Shown here piece after piece: positions 1,944-26,587 of a stretch of 33,292 nucleotides of DNA. Source of the stretch: a virus. Numbering within the stretch: the stretch's first letter is position 1; every line of letters starts with the position of its first letter. The stretch covers positions 1 through 33,292 of IMG/VR virus record IMGVR_UViG_3300045417_000647; one strand, written 5' to 3'. Under the pieces are notes generated by a model, which had not been told where the DNA came from, searched no databases, and saw only the letters and a list, made by a program, of their open reading frames with translations. The position numbers and the translations under genes are program-made.

Positions 1944-2249
1944 CCTGTATGGCCTAGCTACTAGGCTCCACTTCAGTTGCGAGGCCGGGCGCTACTCCGG
2001 CTGGCTGAGAGGGCAATGGAGCCTCAGCCTACCCCTCCCGCCCGGTTGCATGCCCACAGAGCCGGAAAATGGGAGCGCAATGTAGCGTGTCTGCTCTCCA
2101 CGCCGCTCGCAGACGAATCATGAGTCAGTGACCGGCGATCCGCAAGGCTGAAACGTCGGCGCCGAAAATGCAGGATTCTCCCGCAATTACGTCTCAAGGC
2201 CCCGCCTTTGTTGGTTTCTGGGTCGGCGCCGAACATGATAGATTCCTGT
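1944..2249. other. Non-coding gap with inverted and direct repeats
   Basis: No convincing gene on either strand. Three structures are visible. The first is an inverted repeat GCCTAG-CTA-CTAGGC at 1952-1966, just after the SRAP fragment. The second is GGCTGAG / CTCAGCC at 2003-2009 and 2023-2029. The third is an imperfect 24-bp direct repeat at 2155-2178 and 2222-2245 (20 of 24 identical) starting GTCGGCGCCGAA. The second repeat copy ends five bases before the start of the next gene, so it may carry a promoter or operator. No T-run follows the hairpins. Confidence 0.5.
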
Positions 2250-3315: not shown

Positions 3316-3791
3316 CGGACCAACTCGAAGTGCGGACCATCGGTCTCGCCCTTCTCTCCGATCACGCCGTCCTCATCCCAATCGCGGCCCCAGCGGACGC
3401 GGACCTTCTCGATCCGAGCGGCCTCCATGAAGGCGTCGTACATCAGCCGCCATCCCGGCCCCTCTTTCCAGTCATAGGGAGCGATCAGACAGTCCACGGC
3501 ATGGCCGTAACCGTCCTTCTGGACGGCATGTTTGGAGCTGAACGGGTCGGCCAGCCACGTCACCTTTGCGACCGACGGCCGGGCGTACTTGGCCGGGATG
3601 CCCTTCGCCGCCAGCTGGGCGGCCGTGCGGCCCTTGCCGTAGTTCTCCATCATCCGCTCTCGAGATCGGACGCCCTCGATCACCTTGAAGTCGATCTTCG
3701 AGATCGAGATGGCGCGCTCCACGACCCGCACCAGGTCGGGGTGGACCCCCTTCAGATTGGCGCGCGAGGCCGCGCCCAGCACATACGGCAT
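3312..3791 (-). CDS. Endolysin, M15-family L-Ala-D-Glu-type peptidase
   Basis: Peptidoglycan hydrolase for host lysis. The zinc-site pattern of M15C-type phage endolysins is clear: SSKHAVQKDGYGHAVD (His and Asp ligands, around residues 84-99) and the C-terminal DGPHFELVR (third ligand His). The early segment GVRSRERMMENYGKGRT is the usual substrate-side segment. Relatives cleave the bond between L-alanine and D-glutamate in the stem peptide. There is no signal peptide, so export depends on the holin gene upstream. Start at 3791 has GGAG nearby. At 159 aa it is full length. Downstream Rz overlaps by four bases. Confidence 0.9.
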   Translation of the reverse strand: MPYVLGAASRANLKGVHPDLVRVVERAISISKIDFKVIEGVRSRERMMENYGKGRTAAQLAAKGIPAKYARPSVAKVTWLADPFSSKHAVQKDGYGHAVDCLIAPYDWKEGPGWRLMYDAFMEAARIEKVRVRWGRDWDEDGVIGEKGETDGPHFELVR

Positions 3792-3850
3792 GGTCAGTCT
3801 CCAGATTGTAGGGATTGATGCGAACGGCGTTCGCGTGTCAGCCTGTCGGC

Positions 3851-20463: not shown

Positions 20464-22143
20464 TCAGACCATCAGAAGGCCCCGCGCCTCGTAGACGCTC
20501 GGCCCCGTCGCCATGGGCTTGCGCGCCATCAGCATCATCGCGTTGAACGCCGCCACGAGCGGGTCGATCTTTGCCCGGCCGGCCGACTGTTTGGTGATGA
20601 TCACCGCGCCGCCTCGGACCTCGACCTTCGCGTTGCCGACACACCAGGCCATCATCCGCTGACCGCCATGCTTCAGCGATCCGTTCTTCAGCTTGATCTC
20701 CGCGCCCCAGGAGGCCGGCGAGAGCGCAAATCCCTGTCGAATCGCGACCTGCTGTCCCGGCGCGATTCCGCGCGCCTCCAGCTCATCGACGAGCGCGGCG
20801 ACGCCGATTGGGTCGATCCCCACGCCCTCAGACTCGGGCAGCAGGGAAGCCTCCTTGACCCGTTCGATGTAGGCCGCAGCCTCCATGATTGGGGCCATCG
20901 GATCTTCGCTGATCGTCAGGTCGCCATCGCCTTCGAAGTCCTTCAGCCGGCTTGCGATGTCCGCGCGGCGCTTAAGCACGTCGTCGTGCGCCCAGGCATG
21001 GGTCCAGAGCAGCCACTTCTGCGTTTCCCTGCACCGGCCCAGCACCGCCAGACCGAACAAGTCGTCCAGGCCGCCGCCGTCGATGCCAATCGTGCAGACC
21101 TCCGAACGCGCCAGGACCTCTTCGAGGGTCAGGCTCTTGTCTGTCGCCGCTTCCCAATAGTCGGCGCCGGCCCAGCGGTTGTTCGCCAGCTTCAACCCGA
21201 TCTCGACGTTCAGGTGCTTGGCGAGGAAAACCTGCCTTTCGCCCCCGGTCGCGTTCTCGACCTTGCGAAGCTCAGCCTCCAGCCACTCCTGATCGACCGA
21301 CCGGCCCAGATTCGGGTTGGTGATGTAGAAGTTTTCCGGCCGCAGGAAGGCCTCGGCCTCCACCATCTGCTCTGGAAACTCATAGATGACGGGAAGGGAG
21401 CGCTGATCCGCGATCTTACCGTCCCGAACGTCGCGGAAATAGTCGAGCTTGGTCTTGAAAACCCCCGCCGGCTCTTCGTCCGACTGCGTGCTGGCCCAGA
21501 TGATGAAGCCCTCGGGCCTAGAGACCGTGCCGCCCGTGGCCTCTCGAAGCATCGCGTCAGCCTTGGCGCGTTTTCCGAAGACCCACAGCTCGTCGATGAA
21601 GATGTGGCCGGCCTTCTTGCCGGACACCGTGTCCGTGTCGGCCGCCACGACCTTCAGCATGGCGCCGTTGTCGCGGTGCGTGATCGTCCTGATATGATCC
21701 TGGACGTGGAAGAGGTCTTCCAACTCCTCGTCCGCCTTCACCATGTCCCGCGCGGGCTTGTAGGCGTTCTGGGCGACCTCGATTGTCGGCGCTAGGATCA
21801 GCAGCTCCGCCGAATGGCGCCAGTTCCGGATGAGCGCCGTGAGCATGATGCCCGCCGCAATGGTGGACTTCGAGTTCTTCTTGCTGATGAGCAGGAAGAA
21901 CTCCTTGATCAGACGCCGGCCGCTTACTGCGTCATAGGCGCCGAAGATGGCCGATACGAAATCGAACACCCACTGCTCACAGGCCTCGCCGAAAGTCGGT
22001 TGACGCGGCGCATCCACGATGCGGAGCGACTTGAAGACCTCCAGCGCCTCTCGCGCTTCGTCCCTGAACAGCGGCGACGGGATAAGGGACCGCTTGGCGA
22101 CGATCCGGTCTCTCCAGTCGACGCAGGCTGTCGACCACTCCAC
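20464..22143 (-). CDS. Terminase large subunit
   Basis: A 559-aa packaging motor and nuclease. The Walker A-like segment is [10 protein letters not shown] (residues 85-94), Walker B is HIFIDELW (180-187), and the coupling motif is probably IIWASTQS (214-221). The nuclease domain begins at about 345 with [12 protein letters not shown] (catalytic Asp355 and a further Asp at 360/361). The sequence is of the HK97-type Terminase_1 class, which usually cuts at cos sites. The gene starts three bases after the small-subunit stop. Confidence 0.95.
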
Positions 22144-22146
22144 CGG

Positions 22147-22719
22147 TTACTGCACCAGCCGAATAGGCGGCGGGGGCGAAGCGAAGCGGCTGCTGCTTTT
22201 TGCGACCCGCTGTCCGGCCTCCTGGCGCTGTTTCTTGACGCCCTGGGGGGCTCCCGCTTCCGCCAACGTCTTTGCCGCCGTCGCCAGCGCCTTAAGAACA
22301 TCGGATCTGGTCTTCAGCGACACCGCCTGCATCAGGGCGGCGCGCTGCCCGCTGGCGTCGGCCTCGTCGGTTGACGAAACGATCAGTGACTCTAGCTCGC
22401 CTTGTCGGCTCGTGGTGGCGTCCAGCTCGTCCATCATCCGCATGACGAGGTTCCGACCTCGACCGACGATTGCCTCGGGCGTCGTGTTCTCAGGGGTCAG
22501 GACAGTGCCGATGTAAACTTTCTCGGGCTCCGGGTGCGCGGCCTCAGCCTGCGCACCATCCTGCGAACTCGGGCGCTCCCATCCGTCCTTCTTGGCGCGC
22601 TTTCGGATCGCCGCTTCTGTGATCCCGTACCAGCGGGCAATCTCGCGCACAGACATCTTGCTCGTGCGGTAGTCGCGCTCGATCTCAGCCCAATCGACGG
22701 GCTTTTTTTCATCCGCCAT
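22147..22719 (-). CDS. Terminase small subunit
   Basis: A 190-aa protein. The N-terminal helix-turn-helix (MSVREIARWYGITEAAIRKR, about residues 22-41) binds the packaging site. The rest is helical, with a probable oligomerisation region (about 85-160), and it ends in a basic Pro/Ser-rich tail. The start at 22719 is supported by AGGAG five bases upstream; the in-frame upstream ATG lacks one. It is immediately followed by the large subunit. Confidence 0.85.
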   Translation of the reverse strand: MADEKKPVDWAEIERDYRTSKMSVREIARWYGITEAAIRKRAKKDGWERPSSQDGAQAEAAHPEPEKVYIGTVLTPENTTPEAIVGRGRNLVMRMMDELDATTSRQGELESLIVSSTDEADASGQRAALMQAVSLKTRSDVLKALATAAKTLAEAGAPQGVKKQRQEAGQRVAKSSSRFASPPPPIRLVQ

Positions 22720-22738
22720 GAGGGCTCCTGCCGGCCCG

Positions 22739-22754
22739 GTTCGCACCCGCGAAC
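22739..22754 (-). other. Short hairpin upstream of the small terminase
   Basis: GTTCGC-ACCC-GCGAAC forms a perfect 6-bp stem with a four-base loop in the gap between HNH and terminase genes, about 20 bases before the terminase start. It may affect terminase translation or belong to the packaging site region. The same hexamer pair recurs in other gaps. Confidence 0.4.
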
Positions 22755-22842
22755 TTCCCAGCCGGGATTTAATCTGTCCGTGAGTAGGCGGCCGGTCTGT
22801 GAGCGACGGACCTTCGGAAGTTTCGATGCCCCCCTGGGGCTG

Positions 22843-23223
22843 TCAGCTCCAGTCGCCCCGTTGGTGGAGGCTGGACTGCTCTTCGGCCTGGATAGCGCTG
22901 TCGTGGACGGCCTTGCTGACCGTCTCGACGTTGGCTGGGTCCCAGAAAAGGGCGGGGTCGCCACGGTGCGGACGCTTATGGTTGGCTACCGGGCTGTCAG
23001 GCGCGGGATATGTCCCGCCACAGAGTTGGCCCGTCCGCTGGCAGGTGTAGTTGTCCCGGATGTGGACCTCAGCCTTGAGGTCACGCCATCGTTTCGTCTT
23101 GTACCAGGCCTTCCATGGCTGGCTATGCTGTGCAGGCGCGGGGCCTCTGGATGCATCCGAAGCAAAGGCCCGGCGATCGCACGCGTAGTTGACGCGACTG
23201 GACAGGTGCGACAGTCGGGCCAT
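22843..23223 (-). CDS. HNH endonuclease next to terminase
   Basis: A 126-aa protein of the HNH type that accompanies HK97-like terminases and helps in genome cleavage at packaging. The core KAWYKTKRWRDLKAEVHIRD is followed by CQRTGQLC (Cys61, Cys68) and NHKRPHRGDPALFWDPANVE with His82, His86 and Asn98. The final VSKAVHDSAIQ carries His107. The two cysteines usual in that last segment are replaced by Ser103 and Val106. AGGAG six bases before the ATG supports the start. It is the first gene of the late operon. Confidence 0.88.
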   Translation of the reverse strand: MARLSHLSSRVNYACDRRAFASDASRGPAPAQHSQPWKAWYKTKRWRDLKAEVHIRDNYTCQRTGQLCGGTYPAPDSPVANHKRPHRGDPALFWDPANVETVSKAVHDSAIQAEEQSSLHQRGDWS

Positions 23224-23595
23224 CGCGAGCTCCTGATCTATCCGGGAATGACCGCCATGCCAGCAATGGGAACGGCTATGCCGTGCCGCGCCGCTGGGTT
23301 GACGCTATGGACGCCTGGCTATCCCGAGCCATCGTCAGCGCTGGTCGGTCGAGATGAACGTCCCTTGTCCCGGTGCTGGACGACGTGGAACTGGCGCGGG
23401 GTATCTTGTCGGACTGCTCAGGGCGAGTTTCGCCTTACCGACGATGCAGTCCCCTATCGAGGTCGCTGATCGTCCGGACCGAGGCCTGCCCGCTGGGCTG
23501 TTTTACCAAGGGGCTGCATTGCCCGTGAGCTGTGTCCGCACCATCTGCCTGCCATGATTTGCGCCGAGGTGCAAGCCCCGGCGCAACATCTTGTG
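23224..23595. other. 372-bp structured gap between the NusG-like and HNH genes
   Basis: No convincing gene. Two overlapping short - strand frames exist (23503-23589, 28 codons, starting MLRRGLHLGANHG; and 23454-23555, 33 codons, starting MAGRWCGHSSRAM), neither with a good ribosome site. An inverted repeat with a nested hairpin lies at 23411-23452. The region is at the border of early and late transcription and next to the terminase, so the late promoter, an antitermination site or cos may lie here. None can be assigned from the sequence. Confidence 0.55.
23411..23452 (-). ncRNA. Nested RNA hairpin candidate (antitermination-site-like)
   Basis: On the - strand, GGACTGC pairs perfectly with GCAGTCC 28 bases later. 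Between them lies a second stem, GGCG-AAACT-CGCC, separated by an 11-base bulge on one side and 4 bases on the other. The element is just downstream of the NusG-domain gene in the direction of late transcription. It resembles in position, not in sequence, RNA or DNA sites that modify RNA polymerase in lambdoid phages. No T-run follows, so it is not a standard terminator. Confidence 0.4.
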
Positions 23596-24090
23596 TCAGG
23601 CAGCCGCCTCCCACTCTTCATCCTCGCCGTCCAGCTCTCCAGACAGCACCAGATCCAGGCGCCCGTTGGGATCGGTCTTCAACAGCTTGCCGAGGGCGGT
23701 CAGTCCGTTCCCGACCAGCCGATTCATCGAACCGACCATGGGCTTCGGCGGCAAATATCGGTGCGACGTGGTCTGGTCAAACTCGCCGGCGCACTGGCGG
23801 GCCATCAGCTGATAGACCAGAGACGCCAACCGTTCGCTGCTAAGCCGGGTCTCGACGATCCGCGTCAGCCCGTCGATGTCGTACAGCTGGTCATAGTCAT
23901 TCCAGGGGCCCAGGCCGACGAACAGATAGCCGGGGAACAGGGGCCGCTCCACCTCCTCGCGACCGCCCTTCGGAACAGACTTGTACGTCCGTTCGATCGG
24001 GCAATAGACCGTGAAGCGGTGCTCTCGCAGAGCGATCGCCGCCCGGCGGCCGGCTTGGGTCACTTGGGCGATGTGCCAGGTCAAGGTCAT
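23596..24090 (-). CDS. NusG-domain (NGN) protein, probable late-transcription antiterminator
   Basis: A 164-aa protein. Residues 3-90 match the NusG N-terminal domain: WHIAQVTQAGRRAAIALREH, then FTVYCP and RPLFPGYLFVGL (residues 49-60), and GLTRIVE. This domain clamps RNA polymerase. The C-terminal region (about 118-150, LVGNGLTALGKLL ... GRLDLVLSG) may be a degenerate KOW domain; an acidic tail follows. It is the last gene of the leftward early operon (ATGA overlap upstream) and directly precedes the late genes, where lambdoid phages keep Q. A role in turning on late genes is inferred from fold plus position. Confidence 0.8.
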   Translation of the reverse strand: MTLTWHIAQVTQAGRRAAIALREHRFTVYCPIERTYKSVPKGGREEVERPLFPGYLFVGLGPWNDYDQLYDIDGLTRIVETRLSSERLASLVYQLMARQCAGEFDQTTSHRYLPPKPMVGSMNRLVGNGLTALGKLLKTDPNGRLDLVLSGELDGEDEEWEAAA

Positions 24091-24851
24091 GCGGCGGCTC
24101 CGTCGTGGTCTTGCGGTTTGGGGGCGATGGTTCCGGCGCGCTCGAGCATGGCGCGCATTTCGGCGCTCATGGCGCTGCCGGGCGGCAGGGGCGCGGCTGG
24201 CGTGGGCTTGCGGGCGGCCTGCCGGGCGGCGAGGGCCTTGGCGGTCGGCGTCTGAGACAAGGCCTCCAGGGTCTGGGCCAACATGGCCTTGACCTCTTCG
24301 GGCGAGTGCCGGACCACCGGCGCCTCAATCATGACTTCCGCCGCGCGGGCTTGAACCACCGCCGCGCGGGCGCGGTTATGAGCTCGGGTCCAGCGGCCGG
24401 GCGTCGTCGATTGCCGGGCCAGATCCGCCAGACGGCCGGGCTTGGGCAGAAACTCCGACTTCGGGTCGGCGACATGGGCCTTCATGCCCGCTTCGATCTG
24501 CGCCGGCGTCAGTCCGTCCAGGGCGTCGAAATAGTCGGCCCAGAACGCCGCCGTCTCGCCTGTGTCCCGTTCCGGCTGGGGATAGGTCGCGAACCGGCTC
24601 CCGATGATGTCGCGGACCTCCGATTCAGAGGCCGGACGCAGGGCCGCCGCGCGCAGGGCCGGCATCGCCATCGCCGCCTCAGACCGCAACATCTCGCTCT
24701 TGGCGATGACGTCGACGGCCTTGGCGTCAGTAGGCTCGTCGAGCAGCCACGAGGCCAGCGGCTTGCTCAGCACCGGCGTAGTGACGGTCGAGGTTTGCGC
24801 GTTTTGCGGACAGCTTAGCGCTCGGGCGGTGTTCATCGGCTGGGCTTGCAT
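24087..24851 (-). CDS. Replication protein, probable helicase-loader partner (P-like)
   Basis: A 254-aa helical protein. The central part GSRFATYPQPERDTGETAAF, then FDALDGLTPAQIEAGMKAHV and FLPKPGRLADLAR resembles lambda P-type or primosomal loader proteins: an aromatic/Trp helix, a 'L-T-P-x-Q-I-x-x-G' turn, and a 'P-x-P-G-x-x' end. Flanks are Ala/Pro-rich. It starts within the end of the O-like gene (125-bp overlap). ATGs at 24851 or 24836 are possible; the first has GGAAG upstream, and a later start near 24692 cannot be excluded. Position after the O-like gene is the main argument for its role. Confidence 0.65.
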   Translation of the reverse strand: MQAQPMNTARALSCPQNAQTSTVTTPVLSKPLASWLLDEPTDAKAVDVIAKSEMLRSEAAMAMPALRAAALRPASESEVRDIIGSRFATYPQPERDTGETAAFWADYFDALDGLTPAQIEAGMKAHVADPKSEFLPKPGRLADLARQSTTPGRWTRAHNRARAAVVQARAAEVMIEAPVVRHSPEEVKAMLAQTLEALSQTPTAKALAARQAARKPTPAAPLPPGSAMSAEMRAMLERAGTIAPKPQDHDGAAA

Positions 24852-25647
24852 GGGGGCGGGCTTCCGGGATCGAGAGGGCGGCGCGGTTGTCGGCGATGGA
24901 TTGAGCGATGGCGGGTGCGAAGAACTTCCAGGTGGCGATTGGGCGGCGGGCCTTCTGGGCCAGGGCCGTGACCACCGGCACGACGTCGTATCGCCACGAC
25001 GCCCCGTCCCGCTTCCAGGCGACCAACTGGCCCAGCGTCGTCGCGAGGCCCGGCTGACGGGCGGGGTCCAGCATCACGGTCCCGGCCTCGCCGACCAGTT
25101 CCGCCGACCAGGCACGGGCGTCGCCCTCTGGCCAGTCGTCCTCGACCAGCGCCTCGGCTATCACCTGCACCATCGGCGCCGTCGCGATTTCCGCGCCTCG
25201 CGCGTCAACAACAGCAAGTGATGGTTCTAGTGACGGTTCGAACGTAGTGAGGCCTGCATCTGGTGCAGTCTGTACCGGCACCTCGTGCAGTCTGTCGGCG
25301 TCACAGGCGGCATCTGGTGCAGTCTGTTCATTCCGGCATTTCGTGCCGCCTGCACGTCGTGCAGTCTGGTTATGACCACCGTTGGGGAAAAGCGTGAACA
25401 GATCCGACGTCTGCGTCCCGTTCTTCCGCCGCCGCGTGGCCTTCTCGATGGCCCTGACGGCGATCAGAGACTGGATCGCGTTCCGCACGGCCCGGTCGCT
25501 CAGGCCCGTCTCCGCCACGATCTTCTTGACCGGCGGGAAACACTGCGCGTTCTCGTCCGCATAGTTGGCGAGGGCCAGCAGAACCAGCTTTGTCGTTGGG
25601 CTGGGGGCGTCGAACGCGAACGCCATGGCGATGCACTGAACGCTCAT
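24727..25647 (-). CDS. Replication initiator with winged helix-turn-helix (lambda O-like)
   Basis: A 306-aa protein. Residues 10-75 are a winged helix typical of phage initiators: AFDAPSPTTKLVLLALANYA, then CFPPVKKIVAETGLSDRAVR and NAIQSLIAVRAI. A low-complexity linker (about 88-150) contains the repeated QTAPDA and is encoded by iteron-like DNA repeats. The C-terminal part (about 150-306) is helical and Ala-rich. This is the lambda O plan: origin-binding domain, iterons inside the gene, and a C-terminal partner-binding domain. The start at 25647 overlaps the preceding stop (ATGA). Confidence 0.8.
   Translation of the reverse strand: MSVQCIAMAFAFDAPSPTTKLVLLALANYADENAQCFPPVKKIVAETGLSDRAVRNAIQSLIAVRAIEKATRRRKNGTQTSDLFTLFPNGGHNQTARRAGGTKCRNEQTAPDAACDADRLHEVPVQTAPDAGLTTFEPSLEPSLAVVDARGAEIATAPMVQVIAEALVEDDWPEGDARAWSAELVGEAGTVMLDPARQPGLATTLGQLVAWKRDGASWRYDVVPVVTALAQKARRPIATWKFFAPAIAQSIADNRAALSIPEARPHASPADEHRPSAKLSAKRANLDRHYAGAEQAAGLVAARRAY
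25256..25369. repeat. Iteron-like repeats inside the initiator gene (putative origin)
   Basis: Five copies of a repeat with core GTGCAGTCTG: cores at 25263-25272, 25285-25294, 25317-25326 and 25359-25368 are exact. A diverged copy GTGCCGCCTG lies at 25343-25352. Several copies share the wider form GGCAYCTSGTGCAGTCTGT. Spacing is 22, 32, 26 and 16 bp. All lie in the linker-coding part of the O-like gene, as the iterons of lambda do. They are the best candidate for the phage origin. Confidence 0.65.
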
Positions 25648-26129
25648 CGGACACCGCCTGCGGCGATCAGTAGTTCGCCCCACAGCACCCGCGCATGGTG
25701 GCGCTCAATGCCCTCCATCACGGTCGTATGGTGCATCCCGCCGAAGATCGCTCCTATCCTGGGAAGGCTGAGCCCAAACCGGGCCTGTACCTCGGCCATA
25801 GCCTGATGCCGGGCATAGGCCCGGTGACGCTTGTTGCACTTCTCGAGAACTTCGCGGGCAGACAGGCCGTATCGCCGCGCCACACTCTCCACCGTCGCAA
25901 TCACCGCATCATGCGGCGTCGTCGGGTGTCGCGTGGGCTCCCTGGGCGGAAGCGACTTCACTGGCTGACAGAAACGAGGCCCCGGCACATAGGACGGCCT
26001 GGATGGCCGAGAGACGGGCAGGGCGGCGACCGAGATCGAAGAAACGCCCGCCATTGCTGCGGCGGCCTGCACAGGCACGCCCGACCGCATCAGGTCCATA
26101 GCCATGCTGTAATGGGCTGAGGTCGTCAT
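25644..26129 (-). CDS. Protein with C-terminal DnaA domain IV
   Basis: A 161-aa protein. The first half is a short helix followed by a Pro/Ser-rich linker. Residues about 75-145 match DnaA domain IV, the part that binds DnaA boxes: TVESVARRYGLSAREVLEKC, then RAYARHQAMAEVQARFG and PRIGAIFGGMHHTTVMEGIE. The signature GGxxHTTV is kept, with His in place of the usual Asp before the conserved His-Thr-Thr. The AAA+ ATPase domain is absent. It may read DnaA boxes for phage replication or block host initiation; both are inference. The start at 26129 overlaps the previous stop (ATGA). Confidence 0.8.
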   Translation of the reverse strand: MTTSAHYSMAMDLMRSGVPVQAAAAMAGVSSISVAALPVSRPSRPSYVPGPRFCQPVKSLPPREPTRHPTTPHDAVIATVESVARRYGLSAREVLEKCNKRHRAYARHQAMAEVQARFGLSLPRIGAIFGGMHHTTVMEGIERHHARVLWGELLIAAGGVR

Positions 26130-26587
26130 GCGGCTTCGCCCCTGTGCCGCCCTATCCAACGGCAAAGGCTCGCCTTGTCCCGCTGAAAGATCGCCTGTTG
26201 GTCGATCAGCGTCAGATCGGGAAAGGCTTCACGCACGGCCTTGATCGACGCGATCAAGGCGCGGGCCGCAGGGCTGGGATAGCGGATCTTCGTGGCGGCG
26301 CAGGCCTTCAGGTCGGCAACCTGTACGCCGTGCGCGGCGCAGACCTCGCGGATGACCGACTGGTGGGGCCCATCGCAGCCGCCCAAGGGCCAGGGCTCGC
26401 GGGCACGGGGCATTCCCTCCACGTCTCCGCCGCCTAGAATCGCCCGAACGTCGGCCTCGCACCGGCCCAGCACCTTTGCGATCTGGGCCGGCGTGGCGCG
26501 GGCGCCCAGCTTCTGCCGGGCGTCATTGACCTCGGACTGAAGAACACCGCCACGCCGCGCGGTCGCAAATGATCCCGCGCTGCTCAT
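26126..26587 (-). CDS. Second DnaA domain IV-like DNA-binding protein
   Basis: A 153-aa protein. Residues 30-52 (ATPAQIAKVLGRCEADVRAI) look like a helix-turn-helix. Residues 75-148 have a layout like DnaA domain IV: SVIREVCAAHGVQVADLKAC, a basic helix, then FPDLTLIDQQAIFQRDKASL and CRWIGRH, where DnaA has its GGRDHTTV loop. The binding loop is strongly altered (QRDKASL), so specificity would differ from the next gene. Starts and stops overlap neighbours by four bases on both sides. The relation to DnaA is by pattern only. Confidence 0.6.
   Translation of the reverse strand: MSSAGSFATARRGGVLQSEVNDARQKLGARATPAQIAKVLGRCEADVRAILGGGDVEGMPRAREPWPLGGCDGPHQSVIREVCAAHGVQVADLKACAATKIRYPSPAARALIASIKAVREAFPDLTLIDQQAIFQRDKASLCRWIGRHRGEAA

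Follow-up and report, generated by a model that had tools for sequence, protein, structure and literature searches.

How phages control their late genes is well understood for Q proteins of the lambda kind and less well understood in other phages. The lambda Q protein acts with the late promoter pR′, while RfaH reads a DNA element, ops, in a paused complex. LoaP, a NusG paralog of Bacillus velezensis, needs a hairpin in the dfn leader and is reported to serve antibiotic operons whose leader contains an intrinsic terminator (PMC12691694). The put RNA of phage HK022 is reported to work in cis on early transcription independently of any protein (PMC9378689). The locus described here appears, judging from its sequence, to control a late operon and to hold two structured RNA elements, modules A and B, which match no Rfam family at its gathering score, and a cos site is disfavoured. 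A literature search covering titles and abstract openings, with most subscription journals outside its coverage, returned no description of these elements.

Gene order and content of the gap

The window is the whole 33,292-base IMG/VR virus record IMGVR_UViG_3300045417_000647 (positions 1-33,292). Its minus strand carries replication genes, then an open reading frame at 24087-24851 and a NusG-like gene; beyond a 372-bp gap come an HNH gene, both terminase subunit genes and the portal gene. The gap to which the initial annotation had drawn attention (23224-23595) is real and lies between the nusG-like gene and the HNH gene. The features discussed below are as follows.

23596-24090, minus strand: NusG-like gene (164 aa; PF02357, phrog_6386), the final gene before the gap
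23557-23586, minus strand: candidate late promoter, TTGCGC (23586-23581), 18 nt, GCAAAT (23562-23557)
~23476-23562, minus strand: module A, hairpins found with nusG-like genes
23558-23540, minus strand: weak 5′ hairpin of module A
23537-23534 with 23479-23476, minus strand: outer helix of module A
23524-23511 and 23498-23488, minus strand: inner hairpins of module A
23411-23452, strand unassigned: 7-bp inverted repeat of the initial annotation, between modules A and B, at chance level
23238-23374, minus strand: module B (form B1), helix P2 and inner hairpins, closing with P1
23373-23368 with 23247-23242, minus strand: closing helix P1 of module B
23230-23234, minus strand: Shine-Dalgarno AGGAG of the HNH gene as read from the sequence, directly after P1
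22843-23223, minus strand: HNH gene, the first late gene in the window (phrog_589, E 2.6e-21; no Pfam match)
22147-22746, minus strand: terminase small subunit gene (PHROG match; phrog_1206 and phrog_9 for the small and large pair)
20464-22143, minus strand: terminase large subunit gene (PF03354, PF20441; PHROG match)

A protein-coding gap was rejected, stops being present in all three sense frames; an antisense frame (22402-23469, plus strand) extends into the gap. No tRNA was found in the gap. In Rfam 15 no family reaches its gathering score for module A or B in the window, which at E up to 10 gave two chance-level matches only, and eight related loci searched at E up to 1 yielded nothing but a microRNA match below threshold in L004 and a tRNA in L029. 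The tRNA-like sequence of L029 (2126-2205) lies in or near the late leader, and by eye L017, L169 and L175 also hold tRNA-like sequences upstream of module B or the HNH gene. A consensus scan found no terminator within 22800-24200, so the window shows no clear antitermination target. When a 2,001-base region was compared with public phage records, one match was obtained, inside the HNH gene; with the gap alone as query, phage records returned a single match of 27 nt, of the kind expected by chance, and plasmids returned none. Farther away, in the replication region, 25644-26165 encodes a small protein with a DnaA C-terminal-like domain (PF08299).

The initial annotation had singled out a perfect 7-bp inverted repeat (23411-23417 / 23446-23452) enclosing a second hairpin. 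The repeat is exact but not unusual for the gap, which holds three perfect 7-bp repeats with loops of 3-40 nt, two of which read the stem at 23559-23586 in overlapping frames. Shuffled sequences contain 1.0 on average, and 11% of 500 shuffles reach three. A short inner stem inside it, GGCGA/TCGCC on the minus strand, is visible by eye, and 23405-23460 folded alone is somewhat more stable than its shuffles (z -2.5; 1.5% as low). In a blastn comparison of the gap with related loci (L numbers), the repeat was covered only by the near-identical contig 3300045004 (100%) and by L003, where the first 251 nt of the gap agree fully with the window; the blastn matches of L004, L006, L013 and L027 stop short of it. 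The repeat was thus rejected as the key feature, being at chance level and conserved only among near-identical relatives, whereas the gap as a whole is real and richer than had been reported.

Module B and its neighbours

The same comparison revealed a block of ~157 bp common to the window, L003, L004, L013 and L027, and a DNA pattern taken from it led to L160 before that locus had entered any model (100 bits with model R2). These six loci form the B1 set. In the predicted fold, the two segments of the block with the highest conservation are base-paired to one another, and the end of module B adjoins the Shine-Dalgarno sequence of the first late gene. On an alignment fitted to R2, which was itself built from five of the six members, paired bases fill 94.3% of 264 pair cells, against 28-46% with slid partners. 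The covariation score there, 0.191 against 0.120, is matched by none of 500 shuffles; only five pairs are changed on both sides, a count that 43 of the 500 reach, and further pair types are not raised (213/500). An unfitted MAFFT alignment gave -45.8 kcal/mol with alifold against a shuffled mean of -27.7 (0/200 as low, z -5.4) and -31.2 kcal/mol on the antisense strand, and the strands also differ in 37 G-U cells versus 3 A-C cells among the 264. Single-sequence energies are mixed (z -2.9 to +0.9 for B and B2), and L003 and L027 folded alone do not reach the consensus. Comparison between the loci shows B1 as a conserved predicted RNA structure of the sense strand, tied to no single terminase type. 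A B1 remnant, the 3′ end only, precedes an HNH-like gene in L005 (5183-5210).

A shorter element with the layout of B1, termed B2, was recognised in L022, L025, L028, L029, L144 and L145, where HNH, terS or small frames follow it. A profile from four B2 loci found L032 (E 4.2e-7) and L006 (E 1.7e-4) with nhmmer, both before terS and neither yet in the model. At E up to 0.01, model R3, built from seven B2 loci, matched 4 of 398 genomes belonging to the same order as a Caulobacterales MAG. Two, L170 and L171, correspond to the training loci L145 and L144; L169 reads by eye as a near copy of the leader in L022 and precedes another HNH type; the fourth, L172, scored 42 bits before entering the model. 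L175, reached via its nusG-like gene, carries B2 at 52 bits (E 1.6e-11, R3). Overall, B2 is present in 11 loci. The model gave no match below E 0.29 in 80 HNH loci and, at E up to 0.01, none in 3 genomes nor in 216 and 199 genomes of two other orders, a search that included no positive genome and shows little.

An alignment of ten B2 matches (nine distinct rows, L175 excluded), fitted to the model, has both partners changed in 16 of 30 pairs, and none of 500 shuffles attains the observed value in any of the five measures. With a hand-drawn structure on a plain alignment of seven, 73.4% of 207 cells are paired and 11 double changes occur, a number reached by 6 of 500 shuffles; alifold gave no support to this plain alignment (z +0.3), nor to the plain alignments A10 and A9. 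Comparison on the fitted alignment shows predicted pairing in B2 like that in B1. The two forms likely belong to one family, to judge from their layout, their position and two weak cross-matches. Among the seven B2 loci searched, a set outside which L032 lies, R2 marks the place of B2 in L029 and L145 only, and not in L006, L022, L025, L028 or L144; R3, applied to B1, did not recover the window and gave L004 13.9 bits (E 1.2). An R2 match in L159 (25.6 bits), inside a gene reading as alcohol dehydrogenase, and minus-strand R2 matches in L029 and L049 were set aside as presumed false positives. By eye, L006 (2153-2219), L032 (3950-3995) and L175 (2506-2574) share a motif between B and terS, possibly a small hairpin.

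Seventeen loci carry B1 (6) or B2 (11), leaving out the near-identical contig L002 and the L005 remnant; they are not all independent events, as L022, L025 and L169 are near copies and L028 and L029 are close. A nusG-like gene stands upstream in 8 of the 17 (window, L003, L004, L006, L028, L144, L145 and L175), an unrelated gene, here called gene X, in three (L013, L160 and L032), and other or undetermined genes in six. Within the B1 set, the upstream gene is nusG-like in the window, L003 and L004 and gene X in L013 and L160, while the L027 contig apparently starts inside its upstream gene. Downstream of B1, the window, L013 and L027 have an HNH gene and a PF03354/PF20441 terminase, the TerL of L013 and L027 being ~90% identical to that of the window. 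L003 has another HNH-like gene (by eye) and a distant TerL, ~24% identical and of the same Pfam families as the window's. L004 has a Nu1-like protein (phrog_57) with a GpA terminase, and L160 has Terminase_2 and Terminase_3; neither has an HNH frame between B and terS. The DNA before the Nu1-like gene of L004 was also likened to the left end of lambda, but the alignment was unconvincing and nothing rests on it. Module B therefore precedes large terminases of three Pfam types (PF03354/PF20441, GpA and Terminase_3), and it follows neither terminase type nor one regulator.

Gene X (L013 3122-3706; L160 1995-2567, minus strand; L032 2329-2922; L026 2678-3343) occupies the place that nusG-like genes hold in other phages and is a candidate alternative late regulator. 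It has no PHROG match (L013, L026) and no Pfam match (L013), and its model is mostly helical, with a best PDB match at E 0.28. By eye, some loci lacking a nusG-like gene show a terminator-like hairpin and a T run ahead of B (L013 ~3780-3820; L160 ~2100-2150, reverse strand; L169 ~1150-1180), an arrangement that would be compatible with one shared plan of late leaders in which regulators can be exchanged. A short frame like the start of another HNH type, also seen by eye, extends up to the HNH gene from ~3173 in L028 and ~3168 in L029 and is possibly the scar of a cassette swap.

Module A, the NusG-like protein and a candidate promoter

The NusG-like protein matches PF02357 (E 6.1e-6) and phrog_6386, annotated as 'transcription antiterminator' (E 1.5e-10). 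Its AlphaFold model has low overall confidence (mean pLDDT 56; residues 104-164 below 50), and with the C-terminal part unmodelled RfaH was the top Foldseek match (E 2.5e-6). With tblastn, the protein had no match in phage records and no relative among genome contigs.

A profile of module A was built from six nusG-like loci (window, L004, L005, L006, L144 and L145). Below E 1.6 it matches only nusG-like loci, namely same-contig records and L003 besides the training set, a result that is circular for presence; the profile is silent in gene X loci. It misses the nusG-like loci L017, L028, L146 and L158 and the weaker NusG loci L147-L157, and among nine further nusG-like loci eight gave no match and L179 a weak one (E 0.54) with a readable copy. 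The six sequences reach -9.2 with alifold against -1.6 when shuffled (0/200 column shuffles as low). In the outer and last helices, drawn by eye in five sequences with L179 added, 87.2% of 39 cells are paired, covariation is 0.450 against 0.210 (0/500 shuffles) and five of eight pairs are changed on both sides (1/500), while further pair types are not raised (294/500). The remaining helices were left out of this count, as the alignment shifts register there. Folded alone, the module A of the window is no stabler than its shuffles (z +1.0), the copies ranging from -1.8 to +1.0. In L006, modules A and B stand apart in one record with open frames between them. By comparison, module A occurs with nusG-like genes, and two of its predicted helices covary. 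The earlier proposal of a recruitment site for the NusG-like protein fits module A insofar as the profile finds only nusG-like loci below E 1.6, but many such loci are missed.

The candidate late promoter lies just past the stop codon of the nusG-like gene. A TTGNG motif falls within -10 to +15 nt of the end of this codon in 10 of 20 loci, with 7% expected for each; this range was set post hoc with the pattern already seen, and relatives are among the ten, the window and L003 being nearly identical. At a distance of 17 nt, the hexamer reads CACTAT in L144 and L145, CACTAG in L028 and CTATAA in L179, and by eye L178 has TTGACG, 16 nt and CACTAT. The -10 of the window is poor, and a sigma-70 consensus scan found nothing. 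In addition, the 5′ arm of the first module A hairpin overlaps the candidate -10 of the window; as drawn, both cannot hold.

Alternative readings and known systems

The gap is best explained as the region that controls the late operon and supplies its 5′ leader, comprising a promoter, module A recruiting the NusG-like protein and module B as a general leader. We give this reading a probability of about 0.65, and no more because of the overlap between the first module A hairpin and the candidate -10. We infer the promoter, the recruitment of the NusG-like protein, antitermination and any effect of module B. The late promoter would start a minus-strand transcript just past the nusG-like stop codon, and the nascent RNA would fold the hairpins of module A. 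By analogy with LoaP and RfaH, module A may then load the NusG-like protein onto RNA polymerase, which would become resistant to pausing or termination. The transcript would next fold module B, a structured leader ending beside the Shine-Dalgarno sequence of the first late gene, which could act in cis on late transcription or on translation of that gene. A bolder version, which we consider unlikely, takes B to be a new family of RNAs that act in cis on late genes, as antiterminator or switch, without a phage protein dedicated to the task. It would be a standard part of late operons in Caulobacterales phages, working with any upstream regulator (a NusG-like protein with module A, or gene X) and any downstream terminase.

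Module B may instead act on the translation or stability of the first late mRNA, through ribosome access or protection from RNases, and have nothing to do with antitermination. This is a tentative but real possibility, whose odds are not exclusive of the preferred reading, as it overlaps the second half of it. A start codon with AGGAG lies past the end of B by ~15 nt in the window, ~15 nt in L004 and ~23 nt in L160, a Shine-Dalgarno-like start follows B at ~19-48 nt in six more loci, and B is common to phages with differing upstream genes; however, no such start was found by script in 8 of the 17 loci. That the region is functionless and its hairpins arose by chance is scarcely credible: the first-noticed repeat is at chance level and single-sequence energies are mixed, but the conservation and covariation of both modules already contradict a remnant. 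Cassette exchange between phages could also have made B alike as a recombination linker, since it stands at the border of early genes and differing terminase cassettes and the short frame of L028 and L029 (by eye) resembles the start of another HNH type. Exchange, however, preserves sequence and not base pairs, and the B2 pairs that change on both sides still pair on the fitted alignment, which makes a mere linker highly improbable.

The region before HNH and terminase genes is a common location of cos, and the initial annotation had offered the cos region as one possibility. Module B would then be a cos or packaging site, cut by terminase with the help of the HNH protein, and in the window, L013 and L027 the HNH and terminase genes do follow it immediately. 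This reading is nevertheless very improbable. A single element precedes PF03354/PF20441, GpA and Terminase_3 TerL, in L004 and L160 without an HNH frame before terS, and the B of the window is 88% identical to that of L004 (GpA) and 78% to that of L013, although the TerL of L013 is 90% identical to the window's. The pair formed by the window and L003, whose TerL share Pfam families, is weak evidence against cos by itself. Changes in the stems also keep pairing on the sense RNA strand. As B does not track terminase, cos was rejected. The position of B before three TerL types and after differing upstream genes argues both against cos and for a late-operon leader RNA, a suggestion of the initial annotation that is well supported, for module B above all.

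If A and B do as their positions suggest, the late switch would consist of a NusG paralog and two leader RNAs. As its RNA part is kept across terminase types, it could mark the starts of late operons in unannotated Caulobacterales prophages. Structures kept where the neighbouring genes differ hint at a little-known control of late phage genes.

Among known systems, the arrangement resembles lambda Q and pR′ in that a regulator gene, a candidate late promoter and a leader follow in a row before the late genes. It differs in that the gene before the gap matches NusG families and not the Q family, and in having conserved RNA stems instead of a DNA site. With RfaH, whose chains lead the Foldseek matches, the protein shares a NusG-type N-terminal domain; the target of RfaH is a DNA element. 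The put RNA of HK022 is likewise a structured nascent phage RNA acting in cis, but it is reported to affect early transcription (PMC9378689), whereas module B precedes late genes. Features of a LoaP/RfaH-type system found here are a regulator with a NusG N-terminal domain (in a low-confidence model) and a conserved leader hairpin (module A, the window copy being weak alone); a consensus scan of 22800-24200 found no leader terminator to be read through. This locus differs from the LoaP system in that the operon is a late phage operon, in that no terminator turned up in the gap of the window and in that a second, larger structured RNA follows. The LoaP hairpin is described as being of the UNCG type, which the first module A hairpin of the window is not, while L144 has C(UACG)G and L145 C(UUCG)G by eye. 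Both systems nonetheless appear to pair a specialised NusG paralog with a long operon whose 5′ leader forms a small RNA hairpin (PMC12691694), and by analogy LoaP would be the nearest working model for this locus.
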